From Aromatoleum aromaticum EbN1 (GTDB taxonomy: Bacteria > Pseudomonadota > Gammaproteobacteria > Burkholderiales > Rhodocyclaceae), in assembly GCF_000025965.1 (NCBI RefSeq), contig NC_006513.1, positions 2,976,001 through 3,040,000 of the forward strand: a stretch of 64,000 nucleotides of DNA, written 5' to 3'. The position numbers were made by a program, and so were the translations under genes. This document shows positions 12,683 to 23,458 of the stretch, one piece after another. Position 1 is the stretch's first letter. The number at the start of each line of letters is the position of its first letter. Below the pieces are notes generated by a model. The model worked only from the letters and a program-made list of their open reading frames with translations. It made no database searches and had not been told where the DNA came from.

Positions 12683-13144
12683 TTAGGCGGACTTCTTGCC
12701 GTAGGGGCGCCCTTCTGTTGCTTGCGATGCTGCTTCGGTTGCTGCGGTGAGATTGTCGGTAGCCAGCGACGAAAACCGGCGCATGCCGGTGTTGAAAACT
12801 TCGAAGGCGGAATTCCAGTCACCGAACGGGTTGCGGCCGGCGAACTGCGGAATCATCGCATTGACGGCTTCCTGCTGGGTCTTGGCGAGGATGTCGCAAG
12901 CCTTGCGTGTGTAATTCTGGGCGTTTTCCAGCAGCGGCTGGAAGACCCTCAACTGGGCATCCTGGGGATTCTTGGCGCGGGCCATTTCCTGCATCGCCGA
13001 TGTGCTGATTTCCATCGCTTCGTGCATCGCGCTCATGTTCAATTCCGCCAGGCGCTGGGCGCTGCTTAGATAAAGAGTCGAAATCGTCTGGAACGCCTGG
13101 ACGACATTTGCGCCGATGACTTCGTGCTCGTGCTTAGTGGGCAT
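12683..13144 (-). CDS. phaP: Phasin family PHA granule protein
   Basis: An amphipathic helical protein of 153 residues in the phasin_2 style: long heptad-like stretches (SSAQRLAELNMSAMHEAMEIS, then ENAQNYTRKACDILAKTQQEAVNAM), one cysteine, and a basic, disordered tail ending GKKSA. Phasins coat PHA granules and set their number and size. A ribosome site (GAGGAATAAC) precedes the ATG, and an intrinsic terminator follows, so it is a single-gene unit, fitting the high expression typical of phasins. A PHA synthase lies 18 kb away in the same window. Confidence 0.82.
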   Translation of the reverse strand: MPTKHEHEVIGANVVQAFQTISTLYLSSAQRLAELNMSAMHEAMEISTSAMQEMARAKNPQDAQLRVFQPLLENAQNYTRKACDILAKTQQEAVNAMIPQFAGRNPFGDWNSAFEVFNTGMRRFSSLATDNLTAATEAASQATEGRPYGKKSA

Positions 13145-13534: not shown

Positions 13535-15523
13535 TCATTCGCGCTGCGGGGATTTCGCCTCGCGGATCAGCTTCCCGCAGTCGCTGTCCATGCCGGGTCC
13601 GGTTTCGATGAGCGGGACCAGGGCGAGCAGCGGGTTGATCAGGCCCAGCGCGACGGCTCCGAGTCCGCGCGCGGCAACCCGGGCGGTGTCGACGGAGGGT
13701 TCCGGATTCGCGAAAGTCCCCTGGATGTAAATCGGGCTGCGCAGCGCGACAGGAGTGGTGACCTTGGTGTCCGATTCCAGCGTGAGGTCGAGTTTTTCCT
13801 CCCCCAGGTCGACAGTGCCGGAGCCGACGATCCGCATGATGTCGGTATCGAGCACGAGCGCGTTGGTTTCCATGAGGCCGTCCTTGACACTGAAGTCGGC
13901 GATCAGGCAGCGGATCTCGACGAGTTCGTCACCGGTGAGTTTCAGCTGCAGCATGTCCCACAGGTGCAGCCCGAGCGCTTCCACCATGAAACGGCTGATC
14001 TGGCCTTCGGACAGGATCAGCGCGGCTTTGCCGTCCGCGGTGCCGAGCATGGCGGCGACGGAATTTCCCCGCCCCTCGAGGTCGACCTGGCCGTTGAGTT
14101 CTCCCAGCGTTGGTTTCGCGAGGTCGGAAGGAGGAAACAACTTTGCCAGCTCGAGGTTCCGCACCCGAAGCTTCGTGCTCGCTTCGAGCGGTTTTTCCTG
14201 CCCATTCATGCGAATGGTGCCGCTGAGCGTCCCGCCGGCAATGCCGAATTCGAGCGGATCGAGCGTCAACACCGAATCCTGCATCTGCAGGCGGGTCACG
14301 AGCCTGTCGATAGGCAGCGCTTCGGGGCGACGGATGCGGTCGGCCTTGAGCTTGACGTCGGCGTCCACACTGTCCCAGCGTCCGGTGCGGAACGGGATCT
14401 CTGGCAGCACGGTGCCGCCCGGGGCAGGAGCGTCGGGAGCAGCGTCTTCCGATTCGACCGGAGCTTCCTTCGCTCCGACGAGCGGGCCGAGGTCGGCGAA
14501 ATCGAGCAGCTTGAACGACAGGTCGCCGTGCAGCGACGGGCGTTCGCCGCCGGTGGCGACCTGCAGCGTGCCGGCGACGTCGCTCTTGCCGATCGCACCG
14601 GAAAAGTTTTCGTAGCGCCATACGGTGCCGTTGCGGATCAGGTGACCGGCAGTGCGGTAGGGTGGCGTTTCCGGCAATGCAATGCCGATCAGCCGGTACA
14701 AGTCCGCGATGCTCGCCCCGCGAAGGTCCACATCGAGGTTGATCGCCGACAATTTCAGCAGGCTGGTGATGTTCCCGTCGGCTTTCACTGCCGTGTCGCC
14801 GAACTGCGCCTGCACGTCGAGCGGGTAAGGCGTTTCCTCGTCGCGCAACGCGAGGACCGGGCCACCGGTGCCGCGTGCATTCATCGGCCGCCCCTTGTAT
14901 TGCCCTTTCGCCTCGAAGCGGATGCCGCTTTCGGCCTCCGTAGCGGGCGGGACGTCGGCTTCGGGCTTCGGGTCGGCAGCACTGTCACTCCCGCGTTCGC
15001 CGCTGCCGCCGGTCGTCGACAGCGTCGCATCGATGCGTGTCTTCTGTGCGGGATCCGCGTAACGGATGCGGCCGTCGTGCAGCGCGAGGCGGCCGATTCC
15101 GACACGCGCCCCCTCGTCTTTCTGCTCCCGGTCGAGCAGCCAGTTTTTCCGGCCGTCCGGGTGTTGTTCGAGAAAGGCATCGACGCGGTCGAGCGTGATC
15201 TCGGGCAGCATCACGACGCGCCTGAACAATTGCGGCAGGCTGACGCCGACGCTGATGTTCTCGGCGGTAAACATCTGCGGTTCCTCGGCCCACTCCGGAT
15301 TCGCGAACGTCACGCCAGCGGCGCCCAGGCGCGTGACCGGCCAGCCCCAGTCGATGCTCAGATCGCCATTGATCACGAGCTCGCGGCCGGTCTTCTCGGT
15401 CGTCTGGCGCATGATCGGGCCGCGTAGCCAGTTCGGATCGAACAGCAGCGCGGCGAGCACGATCAGCGCGATCAGGCCGAGAACCGTCACGCCGATGCCC
15501 TTGAGTACCCGCCCCGATTTCAT
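13535..15523 (-). CDS. AsmA family protein
   Basis: An inner-membrane-anchored periplasmic protein of 662 residues. A basic N-terminus and one transmembrane helix (about 8-28) lead into the AsmA N-terminal domain (LLFDPNWLRGPIMRQTTEKTGRELVINGDL, read with overlap as two pieces) and end in the AsmA_2-like C-terminal region (about 460-630), where MRIVGSGTVDLGEEKLDL and PIYIQGTFANPEPSVD are typical. AsmA-like proteins form beta-groove bridges that influence outer-membrane lipid traffic. It lies 134 bp downstream of the giant CHAT gene on the same strand and could share its transcript. Confidence 0.87.
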   Translation of the reverse strand: MKSGRVLKGIGVTVLGLIALIVLAALLFDPNWLRGPIMRQTTEKTGRELVINGDLSIDWGWPVTRLGAAGVTFANPEWAEEPQMFTAENISVGVSLPQLFRRVVMLPEITLDRVDAFLEQHPDGRKNWLLDREQKDEGARVGIGRLALHDGRIRYADPAQKTRIDATLSTTGGSGERGSDSAADPKPEADVPPATEAESGIRFEAKGQYKGRPMNARGTGGPVLALRDEETPYPLDVQAQFGDTAVKADGNITSLLKLSAINLDVDLRGASIADLYRLIGIALPETPPYRTAGHLIRNGTVWRYENFSGAIGKSDVAGTLQVATGGERPSLHGDLSFKLLDFADLGPLVGAKEAPVESEDAAPDAPAPGGTVLPEIPFRTGRWDSVDADVKLKADRIRRPEALPIDRLVTRLQMQDSVLTLDPLEFGIAGGTLSGTIRMNGQEKPLEASTKLRVRNLELAKLFPPSDLAKPTLGELNGQVDLEGRGNSVAAMLGTADGKAALILSEGQISRFMVEALGLHLWDMLQLKLTGDELVEIRCLIADFSVKDGLMETNALVLDTDIMRIVGSGTVDLGEEKLDLTLESDTKVTTPVALRSPIYIQGTFANPEPSVDTARVAARGLGAVALGLINPLLALVPLIETGPGMDSDCGKLIREAKSPQRE

Positions 15524-15656: not shown

Positions 15657-18600
15657 TCAACTCTTCTTCGATCGGCGGGCCTTTGGCGGACGAGTCTTGC
15701 TGTGCTGGGATTCCTGCGAAAGCGCTGCCGGGGCATCGCTTTGCCCGGCGATGTCGCCGGCACCCACGCTGTCCGCTGCCAAGGCAAGGGCGTCGCGGCT
15801 CTCGTGCAACACCGCTTCGACGTCGGCGCTGCTCGCGCCGGCGCTGACGAGCACTGCCGCCTTGCGCCTCAGCGTGTCGCCCAGCTCGGCGTGGCGTGCA
15901 GCAGCGCCATCGGCGCCCGCGTCGTGCATTCGTGCCGGGTCCGCCGAGCATAGCGCGATGAGGCCGCGCAGGCGTGCGATCGCACGGTCGATCAGCGTGA
16001 CCTCGCCGCGCGCTTCACCTGTACGGACCTCGAGCTTCGCGAGCTCTTCGATGGCACGAATCGGCACCCCTCCGCTGCGGTCCTCGGCTTCGAGCGCCCG
16101 GCAGTATGCGGCGTGCGCCGCTTCGAACCCTTCGACGCCGAGTTCGCCATACACCGCGCCGATCGCCGTCTGCACTTGTGGAAGTGCCTGCCACGCGGCC
16201 GGCGCGCGTGCGAGCAGGGCTCCGAGTTCGCGTTCGAGCGTAGCGAGGTCGCGAGGCTCGTGGCCGATGGCGAGGCGGACGCAGTCGAGCGCATTGACCA
16301 GCTCCGCAGGAGACACCATTGCCGTCGCGCTCGATCCTTCCGTCTCCGCGCCGGACGGATCGAGCACATGCTCGGGGTCGCCGTACGCCTGGTATGCGCC
16401 CCAAGTGTTGTACTGCGGAAAGCGCTCCCAGGTGCTGCGGCGCGCGGCGAACACCGCCGGACCGAACGGCTGGCAGCGACGCACGAAGCCGTCGAAGAAA
16501 GTCGTCGCGAACACTTTCGCCGCCTCGTCGTTGACCTGCCAGCCAGCGACGATGACGCAGCGCACGCCGATCTCGATCAGCTCGCGCGCGAGGCTGTACG
16601 CGAGCCGGTTCGCGGTCTCGCGTTGCACACTCATCGCGCCGAGGTGGCAGCAATTGAGGAACACGAGCTCCGGCACGATTTCCATCTGGCCGACTTCGGC
16701 GGCCGTCAGCAGCAGGCCGTCGGACAGCACCACGCCGCTGCGCACACCCCCATTGCGCGCGACAACGCGGAATACGCCGTGCGCGGCGATCACGAGGATG
16801 CGCCACGGCTGATGGAAAAGGCGAGCGAACACGTCGAGCGCTTCAAGTCCTTCGCCGTAGGTGATTTCGTAGCCGCACTCGGCGAGCAGATCGCGGATCG
16901 CCGCCCCTTCGGCCGCCGCGCCGGGCAGGTCCGGCAGGTGATCGGCGCGCGGCGGCGCAACGGCGAGCGGCTCGCCGAAAGCGACGTGGTAACCGCGCGT
17001 CGAGGGATTCGCGATAACGCACGCGACCTTGCGCGTCAGGATCATCGGGTTGCGACGGTAACGCGTCGAGGCGAACTTGCGCACGATCGCCGTCTTCAGC
17101 GCGAGCGGCTGGTCGTCCGCCTGGAGCATCTCCCACGGCAGGTTCGCGGTGTAGCCGTCGACGACGAGCACGAGCTTTTCGGTGTCGCGCGCCGCGGCCT
17201 TGAATTCGAGCGGAATCATCAGCTGAAACAGCGTGCGCGACAGGTCCGCGCTGTATTCGTCGCGCCCGATCGCGTTTTTCACCAGTGCCTCGATGAGGCC
17301 TGGCTGGCGTTGCTGTACGACGGTTTCGGCGCGGGCGCGCTCGGACAGGAACACGTACTTGAGCCGCGTCGCCGGCGGGGCAGGCGGATGCAGCGCGCTG
17401 CCCGGAAGGGCTGGTGAGCGTGCCGAGTCGTCTTCGCCGTCGAGCGGGGATTCGTCGCTGCGGTCCGCGTCGGTGATCATCAGGCGCGGCCAGTAGCCGA
17501 AGCGCGCGAACACCGCCAGGCGCGGGCGCGCGCCTTCGCCCTCGCGCAGTTCTTCGGCCGGCTCGACGCGGGCTTCGAGCCGGCGCAGGTCGGCGGCAAT
17601 GCGTTCGGGCAGTTCGCGCACCGCGCGCGCCGCACTGATCGCGGTATCGAGGAACAGTTCGATCAGCTCGAGACGCGCGACGCGCAGCCGGGTTCGCGGC
17701 ATCGCGTCGGCGAACTGGCGGTTCGCCGCGATGACGCCGCGCACGATCATCGCGATCGAGTCCTCGATGCCGATATGGGCGGTCGAGTTGTAGCCGATCA
17801 GCAGGCTCGCGAGCGTCAGCTCGTTGTCGGCTTCGCCGGCCGCCGACGCATCGCCGTCCTGGCGGTCGAGCGAGTGCAGCAGGAAGCGCAGCACGCCGGC
17901 GCGCACCGTCTCGGCGATGTCCATCGTCGTCACTTCGCCGAAGCGTCCGAGACCGACAATCACCGCGCCGCGCCCGGTGCCATGCCGTCGGTCCCCGGCG
18001 TCGCGGGCCTGCAGCACGACCGCACTCGAGCCCACTTCGCCGGCGTACACGCCCAGCCGTTCGCGCTGGCGCAACGCGCCGCCGACCAGATAACGGTCGA
18101 TGCTGGCCTCGGCGCCGGCGATCGTGTCGCCGATGTAGTGGCCGCAAATCACCGGCTGACGCGCAAAGCGCAGATCCATCGCGGCCACCGAGACGTGCAG
18201 CGACTGCAGACCTATCGCCGGGCGGCGGCGTTCAGGCCTGGCGCCGAGGATGCTGCGTGCGAGTTCCTCCTCGGTCGGCAGCACCGGCGGAGGGGCGTCG
18301 TACGTCAGCGTCGCCGCCGCCGCGCCGCGCAACACCGGCAGGCGGCCGAGGCGGCTGGTCGTGCCGGCCTGCAGCAGCTCGACGATCGCCGGAAAGTGTT
18401 CCTCGGTGTCGGTCAGGCTGCCGTGATCGGCCGGCATGAACCAGCATTGCCCGTCCGGCAGGCCTGTGAGCCGCCCCGACGCCCAGCTCACCGAGCCGTC
18501 GCCTTCGGGCGTGCCGACCATCTTCAGCCGGCCGCCGTCGAGTACGAGGCCGCAGGGCGTGTTGTCGGCCTTGCCAAACACGTAGTGGACCCGCTCGACC

Positions 18601-21149
18601 GGCTGCGGCGCGTCATTTGTCGCGAGCACGCTCGCCCACAGCTCGAGCGCCTTGCCGATCGCGTTTGCGTCGGGTCGCCCGGCGAGGTGGTCGCCGAACC
18701 AGCGGTCGCGATTGTGCTCGGCGAGCGCGGGCCACAGCCCGGCGTCGAGGTAGCCCGTGCGGTCGGCATCGCCAGCGCCTTTTTGCCACGTCGGACCGCT
18801 GTCGGCAAACCCCGGCCGCGGCAGGAGCTGCAGCGCACCGGGGAAGCCGGCGACGATATCGAGCACGTGCTGCATGCCGTTGCGCAGGTCAAGGCGCGCG
18901 AGCTTGCGCATCGTGTCGGACTTGCCGAGCAGCGCCTCGACCATCAGGTGCGAGCCGTTGTTCGGCGTGCCGAGCATCACCAGCCGGCCGCCGGGCCGTC
19001 GCACGAGCTGCGCCCACAGGTCCGGGTGCTTCGCGATCATCGTGCGGGCGACGAGGCCGCCGAGGCTGTGCGCGAGCAGGCGCACCGGCTGGTTCGGGTG
19101 CTCGGCGAGCGCCTGCTTCAGCACCGTCGCGAGATGGTCGGCCGAGGCGCCGGCGGCCTGCAGCGGCTGGCGCCAGTCGTACGGGCAGCGGATCACGAAG
19201 TGGCTGTCGGAGAGGGACTCCGCGAGCTCGCCGTAGAACATGTCGAACAGCGCTTCCTCGCGCACGTCCGGCCGGTCGAAGCGGATTTTCGCCAGGCCGC
19301 CGCTCGCGAGATCGAGAAAGTCGAACCACACCCGGTCTCCTTCGCCCGGCAACCGGTCGGCGCTGCGGATCTCGAGGTGCGAACCCATGATCCCCGGCAG
19401 CAGGATCACGACTGGCCGGCTGTCGCGGGGCGGGGCGGCGCGCTTCGCTGCACGGGTGCGGACGCTCGCGGCATCGGGTTCGTGACGTCGGACGAGGGGG
19501 GCGAACGCGGCGAGCGCCACGGGTTCGTCGGCGGTCAGCCAGTCGCGCAGCGCGCTTCGCATGTGGCGATTCGAGAAATAGCCGAAGTGATGCACCGATG
19601 GCCCTTGGTCGAACAGGTAGCTGGCGTCGTTGCACGCCGCCAGCCCCGCGTACATCGACTCGGTATCGATGACGAGATCGTTGTCGACGCGGTCGAAGAA
19701 CATCCAGTCGGTGAACAGCACGCCGATCCGCCTGAGCACGCCGCCGCCTTCGATGTCGCCGCTGATGATCGACATCGCGATGCCCTGCTTGCGCTGGGCG
19801 TCAGCGAGGAGCCGCGCCATCGGCGCGTCGGTCATCATCGCCTCGATGCCCGGCAGGAAGCGCGGGTCGATGCGTTTTGCGGCGATCTCCAGCACGATGC
19901 GCCTGAAGGCCGACAGCGCCGCGCTGCCGGCCGGACCGCTCGCCGCGCCAACGAGCTTGGTCATCAGGCTCAGCAGCCCGGACAGGAACACGTCGAGGTT
20001 GTCCGTCAGCAGCGACGTGCCCCGTGCCGGAGATGCGACACGGACGTAACGCTCGATGCGGAAGTTCTTGTCGCCGAGTTCCTCGCGCAACGCGCGCAGC
20101 GAATCCTGTTCGCGCCCCGCGACCAGTTCGCGCAGGCGCTTTTGCTGCGCTGTTTCGCTCGTGTTCGGCGGCGGATCGCGACGATAGGCGGTGATCGCCG
20201 TATCGGTGAGGCCGGCAAGGCACAGCAGGTCGCCGACGAGCCCGCCCCGCGAGTGCGTGACGAGCGACAGCCGGGCGTTCGCCGGCAATGCCCGCGCCAG
20301 CGCGAGCGCATTGTCGATCGGGCTTTCGGAAAACGTCCGGTGTTCGAAGCCGAACATGCGGTCGCCGAAGCGCCGCGCCAGAACCTCCCAGTCGCCGGCC
20401 GCGTTGCCGCTGCGCAGGTCGCTGAAGCTGCCGAAGGTGTGCGAGCCGGTGCCGTGGATGAACAGCAGCAGCGGCGCGTCCGCACCGGCCGCGAGCCGTG
20501 CGTCGCCGGCTTCGCAGCGGTCGGAAGCGGCAGGCGCGGCATCGTTGCGCCAGTGGTAGATCCCTGGTTCGCCGGGCAGACGGCTTTCGATCGCCCACAT
20601 CAGCGCTTTCCCGCCGAGCCACGAGGCGCCCGACGGCGCGAGATCCGGTGCCGCTTCGCCGAGCCAGTCGCGCAACCATTCGCCGGCCTTGCCGAGCGCG
20701 GCCGCGGTGATCGCGTCGCTGCCCAGCGACAGCACCGACAACCTTGACCACATCCAGCCGGTCACGCCGCGCGCAGCCGCCTCCGGGTCGCGCAGCGCGG
20801 CGAGATCGAGCGAGCCGTCGGCGCGCACCGCTGCGGGACGCACTCGGGCGAGATCGTCGCGCAGCTTGTCGGCGCGGATGAAGACCGTCGTGCCGTCCGC
20901 CGCTTCGAGCGCGATCACGCGGTCGTCGGCGACCGAGGCGCTGCTCTCCGGTCCGCCCGCCCGGCCCGGTGCGACGAGCCTGAAAGCGGCCTCGGTGACG
21001 ATACGATCGAGAAACGGGTCCGGGACGCCTGGCGCAGCCCGGGTTCCGGCTGTCAGCACAGGCGGCAGGGCATCGGCCGCCGCGTCTGCGGGAAGCGCCT
21101 CGCCCGGCAGGTGGATGAGGATTTCGCCGGGTTTCAGTGTGCTCGGCAT
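15657..21149 (-). CDS. Giant multidomain protein: two serine hydrolase domains plus CHAT caspase-like peptidase
   Basis: A protein of 1830 residues without signal peptide. Module 1 (about 220-540) is an alpha/beta hydrolase: oxyanion loop IHGTGSH (231-237), nucleophile S300 in THSRGG, candidate D491 and H520/H521. Module 2 (about 575-930) is a second, lecithin:cholesterol acyltransferase-like hydrolase: LLPGIMGSH (583-591), S695 in AHSLGG, D884 in GDGS and H909. Residues about 975-1200 form an unassigned module with VICGHYIGD. Residues about 1320-1590 are a CHAT caspase-like domain with H1457 (IAAHG) and C1501 (LNCCHLG). The last 220 residues are helical, TPR-like, with a basic tail. ATG 21149 follows a GGAGG site; the frame extends 42 codons further. 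Such architectures suggest a conflict or cell-death role; that is inference. AsmA-like gene lies downstream. Confidence 0.85.
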   Translation of the reverse strand: MPSTLKPGEILIHLPGEALPADAAADALPPVLTAGTRAAPGVPDPFLDRIVTEAAFRLVAPGRAGGPESSASVADDRVIALEAADGTTVFIRADKLRDDLARVRPAAVRADGSLDLAALRDPEAAARGVTGWMWSRLSVLSLGSDAITAAALGKAGEWLRDWLGEAAPDLAPSGASWLGGKALMWAIESRLPGEPGIYHWRNDAAPAASDRCEAGDARLAAGADAPLLLFIHGTGSHTFGSFSDLRSGNAAGDWEVLARRFGDRMFGFEHRTFSESPIDNALALARALPANARLSLVTHSRGGLVGDLLCLAGLTDTAITAYRRDPPPNTSETAQQKRLRELVAGREQDSLRALREELGDKNFRIERYVRVASPARGTSLLTDNLDVFLSGLLSLMTKLVGAASGPAGSAALSAFRRIVLEIAAKRIDPRFLPGIEAMMTDAPMARLLADAQRKQGIAMSIISGDIEGGGVLRRIGVLFTDWMFFDRVDNDLVIDTESMYAGLAACNDASYLFDQGPSVHHFGYFSNRHMRSALRDWLTADEPVALAAFAPLVRRHEPDAASVRTRAAKRAAPPRDSRPVVILLPGIMGSHLEIRSADRLPGEGDRVWFDFLDLASGGLAKIRFDRPDVREEALFDMFYGELAESLSDSHFVIRCPYDWRQPLQAAGASADHLATVLKQALAEHPNQPVRLLAHSLGGLVARTMIAKHPDLWAQLVRRPGGRLVMLGTPNNGSHLMVEALLGKSDTMRKLARLDLRNGMQHVLDIVAGFPGALQLLPRPGFADSGPTWQKGAGDADRTGYLDAGLWPALAEHNRDRWFGDHLAGRPDANAIGKALELWASVLATNDAPQPVERVHYVFGKADNTPCGLVLDGGRLKMVGTPEGDGSVSWASGRLTGLPDGQCWFMPADHGSLTDTEEHFPAIVELLQAGTTSRLGRLPVLRGAAAATLTYDAPPPVLPTEEELARSILGARPERRRPAIGLQSLHVSVAAMDLRFARQPVICGHYIGDTIAGAEASIDRYLVGGALRQRERLGVYAGEVGSSAVVLQARDAGDRRHGTGRGAVIVGLGRFGEVTTMDIAETVRAGVLRFLLHSLDRQDGDASAAGEADNELTLASLLIGYNSTAHIGIEDSIAMIVRGVIAANRQFADAMPRTRLRVARLELIELFLDTAISAARAVRELPERIAADLRRLEARVEPAEELREGEGARPRLAVFARFGYWPRLMITDADRSDESPLDGEDDSARSPALPGSALHPPAPPATRLKYVFLSERARAETVVQQRQPGLIEALVKNAIGRDEYSADLSRTLFQLMIPLEFKAAARDTEKLVLVVDGYTANLPWEMLQADDQPLALKTAIVRKFASTRYRRNPMILTRKVACVIANPSTRGYHVAFGEPLAVAPPRADHLPDLPGAAAEGAAIRDLLAECGYEITYGEGLEALDVFARLFHQPWRILVIAAHGVFRVVARNGGVRSGVVLSDGLLLTAAEVGQMEIVPELVFLNCCHLGAMSVQRETANRLAYSLARELIEIGVRCVIVAGWQVNDEAAKVFATTFFDGFVRRCQPFGPAVFAARRSTWERFPQYNTWGAYQAYGDPEHVLDPSGAETEGSSATAMVSPAELVNALDCVRLAIGHEPRDLATLERELGALLARAPAAWQALPQVQTAIGAVYGELGVEGFEAAHAAYCRALEAEDRSGGVPIRAIEELAKLEVRTGEARGEVTLIDRAIARLRGLIALCSADPARMHDAGADGAAARHAELGDTLRRKAAVLVSAGASSADVEAVLHESRDALALAADSVGAGDIAGQSDAPAALSQESQHSKTRPPKARRSKKS

Positions 21150-22948: not shown

Positions 22949-23458
22949 TTACCGCTTCCCGAGGCGCCTCGCGTTGGCCGTCGCCTTGGCGTGGATCGGC
23001 CGCAGTCCGCGGTGTGCGAGCGTCACTCCCGAACCCGCGAGTTTCGACATGCTCTGCGCCGATTCCGAAACCAGGTTGAAGAGGCCGGCCTGCCGCTCGA
23101 CCGATTGTCCCAGGGTCTGGCTGCCGGCCAGCGACAGCATTGCAGTCGTGCCCTCGACCATCCGGGCGGACGTCTGTTCCCACAGGCGCTGGTTGAGTTT
23201 CATCAGGTGCATCGTCATCGCTTGCGCCGATTCGGCTGCCGCCTCGAATTTTTCCTGCCCCATCAGCGCGAATTCCTCCTGATCCTTCGCGCTGGGCGCA
23301 AAACCGGCGCCGGCCATCCGCGTCGTGCGGTGACCGATCACCTGGGCGGACGCCATCATCATCTCGATCGTCCTCACGGCGAGGTTGGTCCATTGGAGCA
23401 TCGGATCGGCGGACAGGCCACGGGGTCGGCGTTGAGTCATCGTGAAGTTTTCTTCCAT
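22949..23458 (-). CDS. Phasin-like PHA granule protein
   Basis: A helical protein of 169 residues with a run of Met/Ala/Gln-rich amphipathic helices (TIEMMMASAQVIGHRTTRM, QEKFEAAAESAQAMTMHLMKL) and a basic C-terminus (NARRLGKR). The pattern fits the phasin family, including the polyhydroxyalkanoate granule proteins of Azoarcus relatives. No cysteine. It converges with the MlaC-like gene, leaving about 100 bp between their stops, and stands alone. The assignment rests on composition and family feel, so it is less certain than the phasin at 12683. Confidence 0.65.
   Translation of the reverse strand: MEENFTMTQRRPRGLSADPMLQWTNLAVRTIEMMMASAQVIGHRTTRMAGAGFAPSAKDQEEFALMGQEKFEAAAESAQAMTMHLMKLNQRLWEQTSARMVEGTTAMLSLAGSQTLGQSVERQAGLFNLVSESAQSMSKLAGSGVTLAHRGLRPIHAKATANARRLGKR

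Follow-up and report, generated by a model that had tools for sequence, protein, structure and literature searches.

An Aromatoleum protein joining two lipases to a CHAT-type protease, a candidate self-cutting polyprotein toxin

What might a single bacterial chain do that carries two lipase-type hydrolases next to a caspase-clan protease? The question is raised by a gene of the soil bacterium Aromatoleum aromaticum EbN1 within the 64,000-nucleotide stretch analysed here (the window, positions 2,976,001-3,040,000 on a 4,296,230-base contig; the genome comprises three contigs and 4.73 Mb). With a confidence just short of even, and on the strength of sequence comparison, we propose that its product may be a self-cutting polyprotein toxin whose protease is of the CHAT (caspase-clan) type. 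An initial annotation had described two serine hydrolases, an unassigned middle module, a CHAT peptidase and a helical tail, possibly forming a one-protein effector of a conflict system.

Domain order and catalytic residues

The gene and the regions of its product lie as follows (window coordinates).

15657..21149, minus strand: whole gene, an open frame of 1,830 aa with an ATG start and its stop at 15657-15659
20490..21149, minus strand: residues 1-220, N-terminal beta-rich region (predicted model) with the candidate cut sites R37, R63 and R127
19515..20480, minus strand: residues 224-545, first hydrolase (Pfam DUF7379), family I.5/T1-lipase-like fold, S300-D491-H521
18357..19421, minus strand: residues 577-931, second hydrolase, lysosomal phospholipase A2 (LPLA2)/LCAT-like fold, S695-D884-H909
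17577..18203, minus strand: residues 983-1191, macro-fold module resembling the M17 aminopeptidase N-domain
16350..17507, minus strand: residues 1215-1600, CHAT/separase-like protease, H1457-C1501 dyad, candidate P1-Arg-binding D1541 (P1, the residue before the scissile bond)
15660..16316, minus strand: residues 1612-1830, helical TPR-type tail, shorter than in most relatives

Pfam recognises DUF7379 (E 2.3e-30, best stretch 228-310), the alpha/beta-hydrolase families Abhydrolase_1, PGAP1 and LCAT (E 3e-6 to 2e-5, between residues 636 and 741) and CHAT (E 2.6e-32, 1303-1591) in the window protein, and the folds of both hydrolases, the macro module and the CHAT part are supported by predicted models and structure searches. 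For the CHAT part, the structure search with the model returned separase as the closest fold (Z 22.5); fold and His-Cys dyad place it in the CHAT family (PF12770), its proteolytic activity being predicted, and fold together with catalytic triad likewise support membership of the LCAT/LPLA2-like lipases. The middle module, present as the initial annotation had it and now assigned, has a macro-type fold resembling the M17 N-domain in its model. Its relatives were found by the fold search, unlike a sequence search of solved structures, in which neither the macro module (E up to 1) nor the macro-CHAT-tail part (E up to 0.1) had a match; Pfam M17_N is matched in the relatives at loci L015 (6e-7, passing the cut-off) and L013 (0.004, short of it).

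Relatives were collected by a pattern scan of an 84,980-species collection, which returned at least 573 stretches encoding them, the unannotated loci being covered by crude open reading frame calling. The best 80 were kept; 75 of them, with frames of more than 1,500 aa, were aligned with the window protein, giving 76 rows that are nearest relatives and no random sample. Within this alignment the first triad is conserved at S300 (70 of 72 non-gapped rows), D491 (76/76) and H521 (76/76); the initial annotation had left the histidine between positions 520 and 521, and the former is His in three of the 76 rows. The second triad is kept at S695 (70/76), D884 (76/76) and H909 (76/76), and the CHAT dyad is invariant (H1457 and C1501, 76/76 each), in agreement with the earlier description of two lipase-type hydrolases and a CHAT domain with intact active sites. 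Gly replaces the nucleophile S695 in six of the 76 rows, in which D884 and H909 are invariant, and S300 is missing in two of 72; some relatives' copies may carry one inactive lipase. Conservation extends to distant full-length homologues, with both triads kept in seven of seven (a set that leaves out the window and L017, the latter identical to L035) and H1457, C1501 and D1541 kept in eight of eight.

The full domain order is found in Aromatoleum, Thauera, Zoogloea, Accumulibacter, Pseudomonas, Thiothrix, Variovorax and cyanobacteria, the nearest named relatives among the loci fetched being Aromatoleum anaerobium and A. buckelii in a quick tree. Farther relatives comprise a macro-CHAT-TPR-S protein that has no hydrolases (L013) and one with a single hydrolase, macro module and CHAT (L015). 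At L014 (7839-10361) the fusion partner of a related LCAT-like hydrolase is a trypsin-like protease and not CHAT, the same logic with another protease. The ratio of nonsynonymous to synonymous substitution rates (dN/dS) of the whole gene is 0.30 and 0.31 against two close Aromatoleum copies, and lower in the macro module (0.12-0.16) and in CHAT (0.20). Because dN/dS is about 0.30 the gene is under selection and no chance fusion; chance fusion or an annotation artefact is ruled out by this ratio together with the order kept over all 76 rows.

Conserved arginines between the domains

Five arginines N-terminal of the macro module stand out from poorly conserved surroundings (conservation of the residue, then of its flanks).

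21039..21041, minus strand: R37 (GT-R|A), candidate cut site, 0.91, flanks 0.34
20961..20963, minus strand: R63 (PG-R|A), candidate cut site, 0.91, flanks 0.33
20769..20771, minus strand: R127 (AA-R|G), candidate cut site, 0.85, flanks 0.43; Arg in 7/7 distant rows
19440..19442, minus strand: R570 (AK-R|A), candidate cut site between the two hydrolases, 0.94, flanks 0.20
18327..18329, minus strand: R941 (VL-R|G), candidate cut site at the boundary of second hydrolase and macro module, 0.97, flanks 0.42; Arg in 6/7 distant rows

Arg occupies positions 37, 63, 127, 570 and 941 in 70, 70, 65, 72 and 74 of the 76 rows, respectively, and R570 has the largest conservation excess over its flanks among all positions scored. 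The sites sit in variable loops with local minima of the predicted local distance difference test score (pLDDT; blocks of 65-77) and have in common the motif (Pro/Ala)-x-(Ser/Thr/Ala)-Arg-(Gly/Ser/Ala). Over the 351 cells of the five sites the next residue is Gly, Ser or Ala in 91% and the previous one Ser, Ala or Thr in 76%, as compared with 22% and 24% for 5,546 other arginines of the N-terminal half. Compared with composition-preserving shuffles of the linkers, R[GSA] was more frequent than expected in the R127 zone (70/71 vs 46.7), the R570 linker (68/76 vs 54.2) and the R941 linker (72/76 vs 47.4), depleted in the macro-CHAT linker (41/76 vs 58.0 expected) and at expectation after CHAT (26/76 vs 24.9). 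Among 35 isolated conserved positions, five of six arginines have a small follower vs two of 29 other residues (Fisher p 4e-4, post hoc), and no isolated conserved Arg occurs after residue 976. The seven distant homologues carry the strict motif [STA]R[GSA] in 20 of 28 boundary zones vs 8.5 expected, and in none of their seven macro-CHAT linkers. The earlier suggestion that the peptidase may release the hydrolases thereby gains new support from five conserved Arg-small sites, as far as sequence can give it.

How would a CHAT protease come to select arginine? A model is offered by separase, which according to an excerpt of PMC10317155 is strictly specific for P1-Arg by virtue of an invariant Asp (human Asp2070). 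Cys2029 (named in the title of entry 9hm7) and Asp2070 of separase are 41 residues apart, and C1501 and the invariant D1541 of the window protein 40, which makes D1541 a candidate counterpart of the Asp by which separase holds P1-Arg. Excerpts from the literature further describe separase as autocleaving and the proform of gingipain R as having autoprocessing sites after Arg.

Several points weigh against cutting at these sites. D[GSA] also exceeds the shuffles, in the R941 linker (52/76 vs 23.3), in the macro-CHAT linker (72 vs 58.5) and after CHAT (39 vs 23.6), and conserved YDAG- and TDAD-like strings lie in the linkers with this excess; because D[GSA] is raised in three linkers, the shuffle test alone is unspecific. 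The p-value is post hoc because the motif was discovered by looking. In the seven distant homologues the excess of the loose motif R[GSA] is modest (27 of 28 zones vs 21.1 expected), R[GSA] is raised after CHAT too (5/7 vs 2.3 expected), R37 and R570 keep the same column in two of seven rows each, and the R63 column is shifted. The type III-E CRISPR CHAT protease (Craspase) cuts after Met, and because of this the CHAT fold does not imply P1-Arg. The conserved arginines could serve binding instead.

Genomic setting, proposed mechanism and alternatives

In 42 of 71 near relatives that could be tested, a metacaspase gene (Peptidase_C14; E 2e-21 in L075) is found no more than 1 kb upstream and on the same strand, nine of the 80 loci having been left out for too little sequence. 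It is also directly upstream in L044, L062, L070, L074 and L093, whose CHAT frame start is uncertain or broken, bringing the count to 47/71; in L065 and L090 it is farther off. In L044 and L074 the CHAT gene seems split in two frames, by frameshift or assembly error. On the tree the metacaspase-neighbour label changes nine times over 68 rows vs a shuffled mean of 18.9. The metacaspase adjoins the lipase-CHAT gene in eight of the nine toluclasticum-group Aromatoleum genomes that have the latter, and is absent in all four such EbN1-group genomes, the window's included. The one-protein effector of the initial annotation is consequently less than the commonest state, one to which the window conforms in that no metacaspase stands beside its gene. 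Among distant loci a C14-like match occurs in L020 only, about 1.1 kb upstream (33% identity), and the L075 C14 protein was not found on plasmids at E 1e-30.

Genes of conflict systems adjoin some relatives, as the initial annotation's proposal of a conflict setting would have it. TIR genes stand directly downstream in L019 and L040, and one overlaps the end of the CHAT gene by four bases in the L020 genome; TIR-STAND genes surround L013, a gene for a SIR2-nSTAND1-binding protein precedes L011, a SIR2 gene follows L015, and restriction genes lie beside L010. At L015 (7737-12235) the one-hydrolase macro-CHAT frame has a four-base overlap with a ThsA-like SIR2 frame, followed by a DNA/RNA non-specific endonuclease gene. 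In other loci, L017/L035 and L018 among them, inspection by eye showed no conflict gene alongside. Wall-lytic genes recur as well: GH19-type lysozyme-like genes upstream in five loci and downstream in one (Pfam check on L056), GH108 after L013 and a muramidase before L021. The upstream GH19-type genes of Thauera and Pseudomonas (L056 5203-6834, L055, L062, L067, L101) show some conserved Arg-small spots over five rows; three of eight listed conserved arginines mostly have a small residue next in the five GH19-like proteins and none of eight in six MPFG/TPR-S proteins, both sets being of few rows. The GH19-type proteins are perhaps further substrates.

Two further kinds of neighbour were noted. 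The L095 11288-13029 type combines an MPFG-type start, TPR-S repeats and a C-terminal domain in common with the small gene L013 16961-17545; stretches similar to the L095 protein occur in 14 loci, some several kb distant, and the small gene is matched in 11 loci (L013 included) and has no Pfam match. On Paracoccus plasmids a 1,090-aa substrate-binding-domain gene lies directly upstream of the CHAT gene (L012 4163-7447 and L016 4234-7509, mutually 48% identical).

For the proposed toxin the following course may be envisaged. The macro module and the TPR-type tail would keep the protease inactive and sense a small molecule or a partner, a sensing role being suggested here for the M17-type macro fold; the trigger is the least certain step, and the TIR or SIR2 genes next to some relatives make a derivative of NAD or ADP-ribose plausible. 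Once triggered, the CHAT protease would cut after the five arginines, releasing and unlocking the two lipases; their attack on membrane lipids would kill the cell or arrest it, in altruistic defence. In relatives the adjacent Arg/Lys-cutting metacaspase probably takes part in the cutting or amplifies it, and murein hydrolases at some loci would help cell lysis; the window protein would do without a metacaspase. That a nucleotide- or partner-sensing macro-CHAT-TPR half with separase-like Arg specificity frees the lipases in this way, amounting with the metacaspase and sometimes murein hydrolases of relatives to a protease-triggered demolition of membrane and wall, is a tentative scheme that we hold somewhat less firmly than the self-cutting toxin as such. 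We infer the defence or suicide role solely from the neighbours of the relatives.

Other observations fit this scheme poorly. Pfam on the ten genes flanking the window gene gave a methyltransferase, two phasins, AsmA, EF-hand, MlaC, MFS, LysR, a membrane transporter and one matchless gene, so the surroundings look unlike a defence island and the neighbours resemble housekeeping genes; here the conflict setting of the initial annotation finds no counterpart. Neither Peptidase_C14 nor TIR_2 has a match in the window's genome. PADLOC-DB 2.0.0 matched no model to the window protein at E 1. No relative was found in the phage collection or among viral contigs, a result by which phage or prophage origin is ruled out. 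In the window protein itself M17_N has no match at E 1, and we know of no ADP-ribose binding by M17 N-domains. The tail, sensor-like as first annotated and equivalent to the TPR-S-type tail (PF20308) of relatives (L075 6e-8; L013 1.5e-6), is shortened by about 110-130 residues against most of 28 relatives aligned, and has no TPR-S match at E 1; the tail profile gave weak TPR matches (best E 0.08).

PADLOC-DB likewise matched no model to the homologues L075 and L013 at E 0.001, and matched BovA to the L015 CHAT part (4e-6) and its 'caspase' model to the L075 metacaspase (9e-14). The ten flanking genes include no TIR gene, no Cas7-11/gRAMP gene or CRISPR partner and no VMAP, MoxR or vWA gene. 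An Rfam scan found nothing at the gathering threshold and a tRNA scan found none. A remnant of a metacaspase or of the lost tail was sought beside the window gene and none was found, the best tail-remnant match (E 0.034) lying in L022, inside the gene itself. Phasin-family genes occur on both sides of the region (window 12683-13144 and 22949-23458), and the downstream neighbour is no partner by present evidence:

13535..15523, minus strand: AsmA family gene

The alternative that survives best, unlikely as we consider it, is a physiological enzyme of lipid or envelope remodelling, for instance in bacteria like Zoogloea and Accumulibacter that form flocs or aggregates, with no defence or suicide role. 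The AsmA, MlaC, phasin and transporter genes of the window speak for it, as do the purifying selection, the presence of the gene in 13 of 17 Aromatoleum genomes and the murein hydrolases adjoining some relatives. Elsewhere, however, the distribution is patchy (six of 185 genomes of the same class and, in a macro-profile search, four of 398 of the phylum, the window's own included in both; relatives in 11 of 72,556 plasmid records), cyanobacteria fall among proteobacteria in the quick tree, and TIR, SIR2, STAND or restriction genes lie beside some relatives.

Rather improbable, in our estimate, is that the upstream metacaspase cuts the five Arg sites while CHAT has other targets, perhaps activation of the metacaspase; SAVED-CHAT activates a caspase partner in a type III-B CRISPR system. 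In its support, Arg stands just after CHSG in 95% of 44 C14 proteins and has Gly or Ala next to it in 37/44, though this conserved Arg may be a general feature of bacterial metacaspases. The metacaspase is the main rival cutter because metacaspases, too, take Arg or Lys at P1 (as stated in an excerpt of PMC4357240), and its genes adjoin many loci, as detailed above. The sites are nevertheless equally well kept where it is missing: Arg stands in 218 of 225 cells with a metacaspase near and in 108 of 110 with none near, the window with its C14-free genome included, 'none near' referring to the locus and, in the EbN1 group, to the genome. CHAT itself is favoured as the cutter because of this equal conservation.

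More doubtful again is an intact multi-enzyme machine in which nothing is cut, the macro and CHAT parts control the lipases by allostery or serve to dock partners, and the arginines are binding motifs. Short basic loop motifs can serve as docking sites, the same linkers hold further short strings that are conserved, and known CHAT proteins act on separate substrate proteins. Against this, the motif lies at borders between domains on the N-terminal side of the macro module and its Arg is followed by a small residue, a frequent feature of scissile sites; in addition, neither the H-C dyad nor the candidate S1 Asp varies. Least probable of all is a system decaying in the window's lineage, with the metacaspase gone, the tail truncated and the protein no longer working as in relatives, for the lack of C14 in the window's genome and the other three EbN1-group genomes with the gene, the lack of an upstream metacaspase or lost-tail remnant and the shorter L022 and L029 proteins (1,835 and 1,770 aa) are countered by the dN/dS of about 0.3, lower in CHAT and macro, by the intact active sites of the window protein and by five intact Arg sites in it, L022 and L029.

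Comparison with known systems

To our knowledge, all known bacterial caspase-clan immune proteases act on separate substrates. In a self-cutting polyprotein the presumed substrates, the two lipases, would belong to the same chain as the protease, and the sites of cutting could be read from the sequence. Should this hold, it would amount to a novel type of bacterial weapon for self-destruction or defence, a compact system in a single chain that is widely spread (at least 573 stretches encode relatives) and whose protease-lipase logic is reminiscent of lytic cell death in animals. The open-licence literature yielded nothing on DUF7379, nothing joining TPR-S, CHAT and TIR, no match to the whole architecture and, for CHAT domain and metacaspase together, a fungus only.

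Unlike TPR-CHAT/Csx29 (Craspase) and SAVED-CHAT, the window protein lacks a CRISPR partner in the ten flanking genes that were scanned, has two lipases fused in the chain and carries a macro fold in place of SAVED. Separase, whose P1-Arg Asp and autocleavage serve as models for specificity, is a eukaryotic cohesin protease without lipases. LCAT/LPLA2, the type VI secretion lipase Tle4 and T1 (family I.5) lipases have the same folds and Ser-Asp-His triads as the two hydrolases, with no joined protease. Type IV Thoeris, in which a TIR protein is paired with a caspase-like protease activated by N7-cADPR (PMC12847820, in excerpt), is similar in its caspase-clan protease and in the TIR genes adjoining the relatives L019, L009/L020 and L040; it differs in that lipases are fused to the protease here and the window's genome has no TIR_2 match. 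In VMAP ternary systems the caspase-superfamily domain always occurs with a neighbouring alpha/beta-hydrolase gene and the two are predicted to cooperate (Kaur et al. 2020, PMC7159879, in excerpt), whereas here hydrolases and caspase-clan protease are fused in one chain with a macro module. The window protein would be a fused, differently built version of this hydrolase-caspase pairing.
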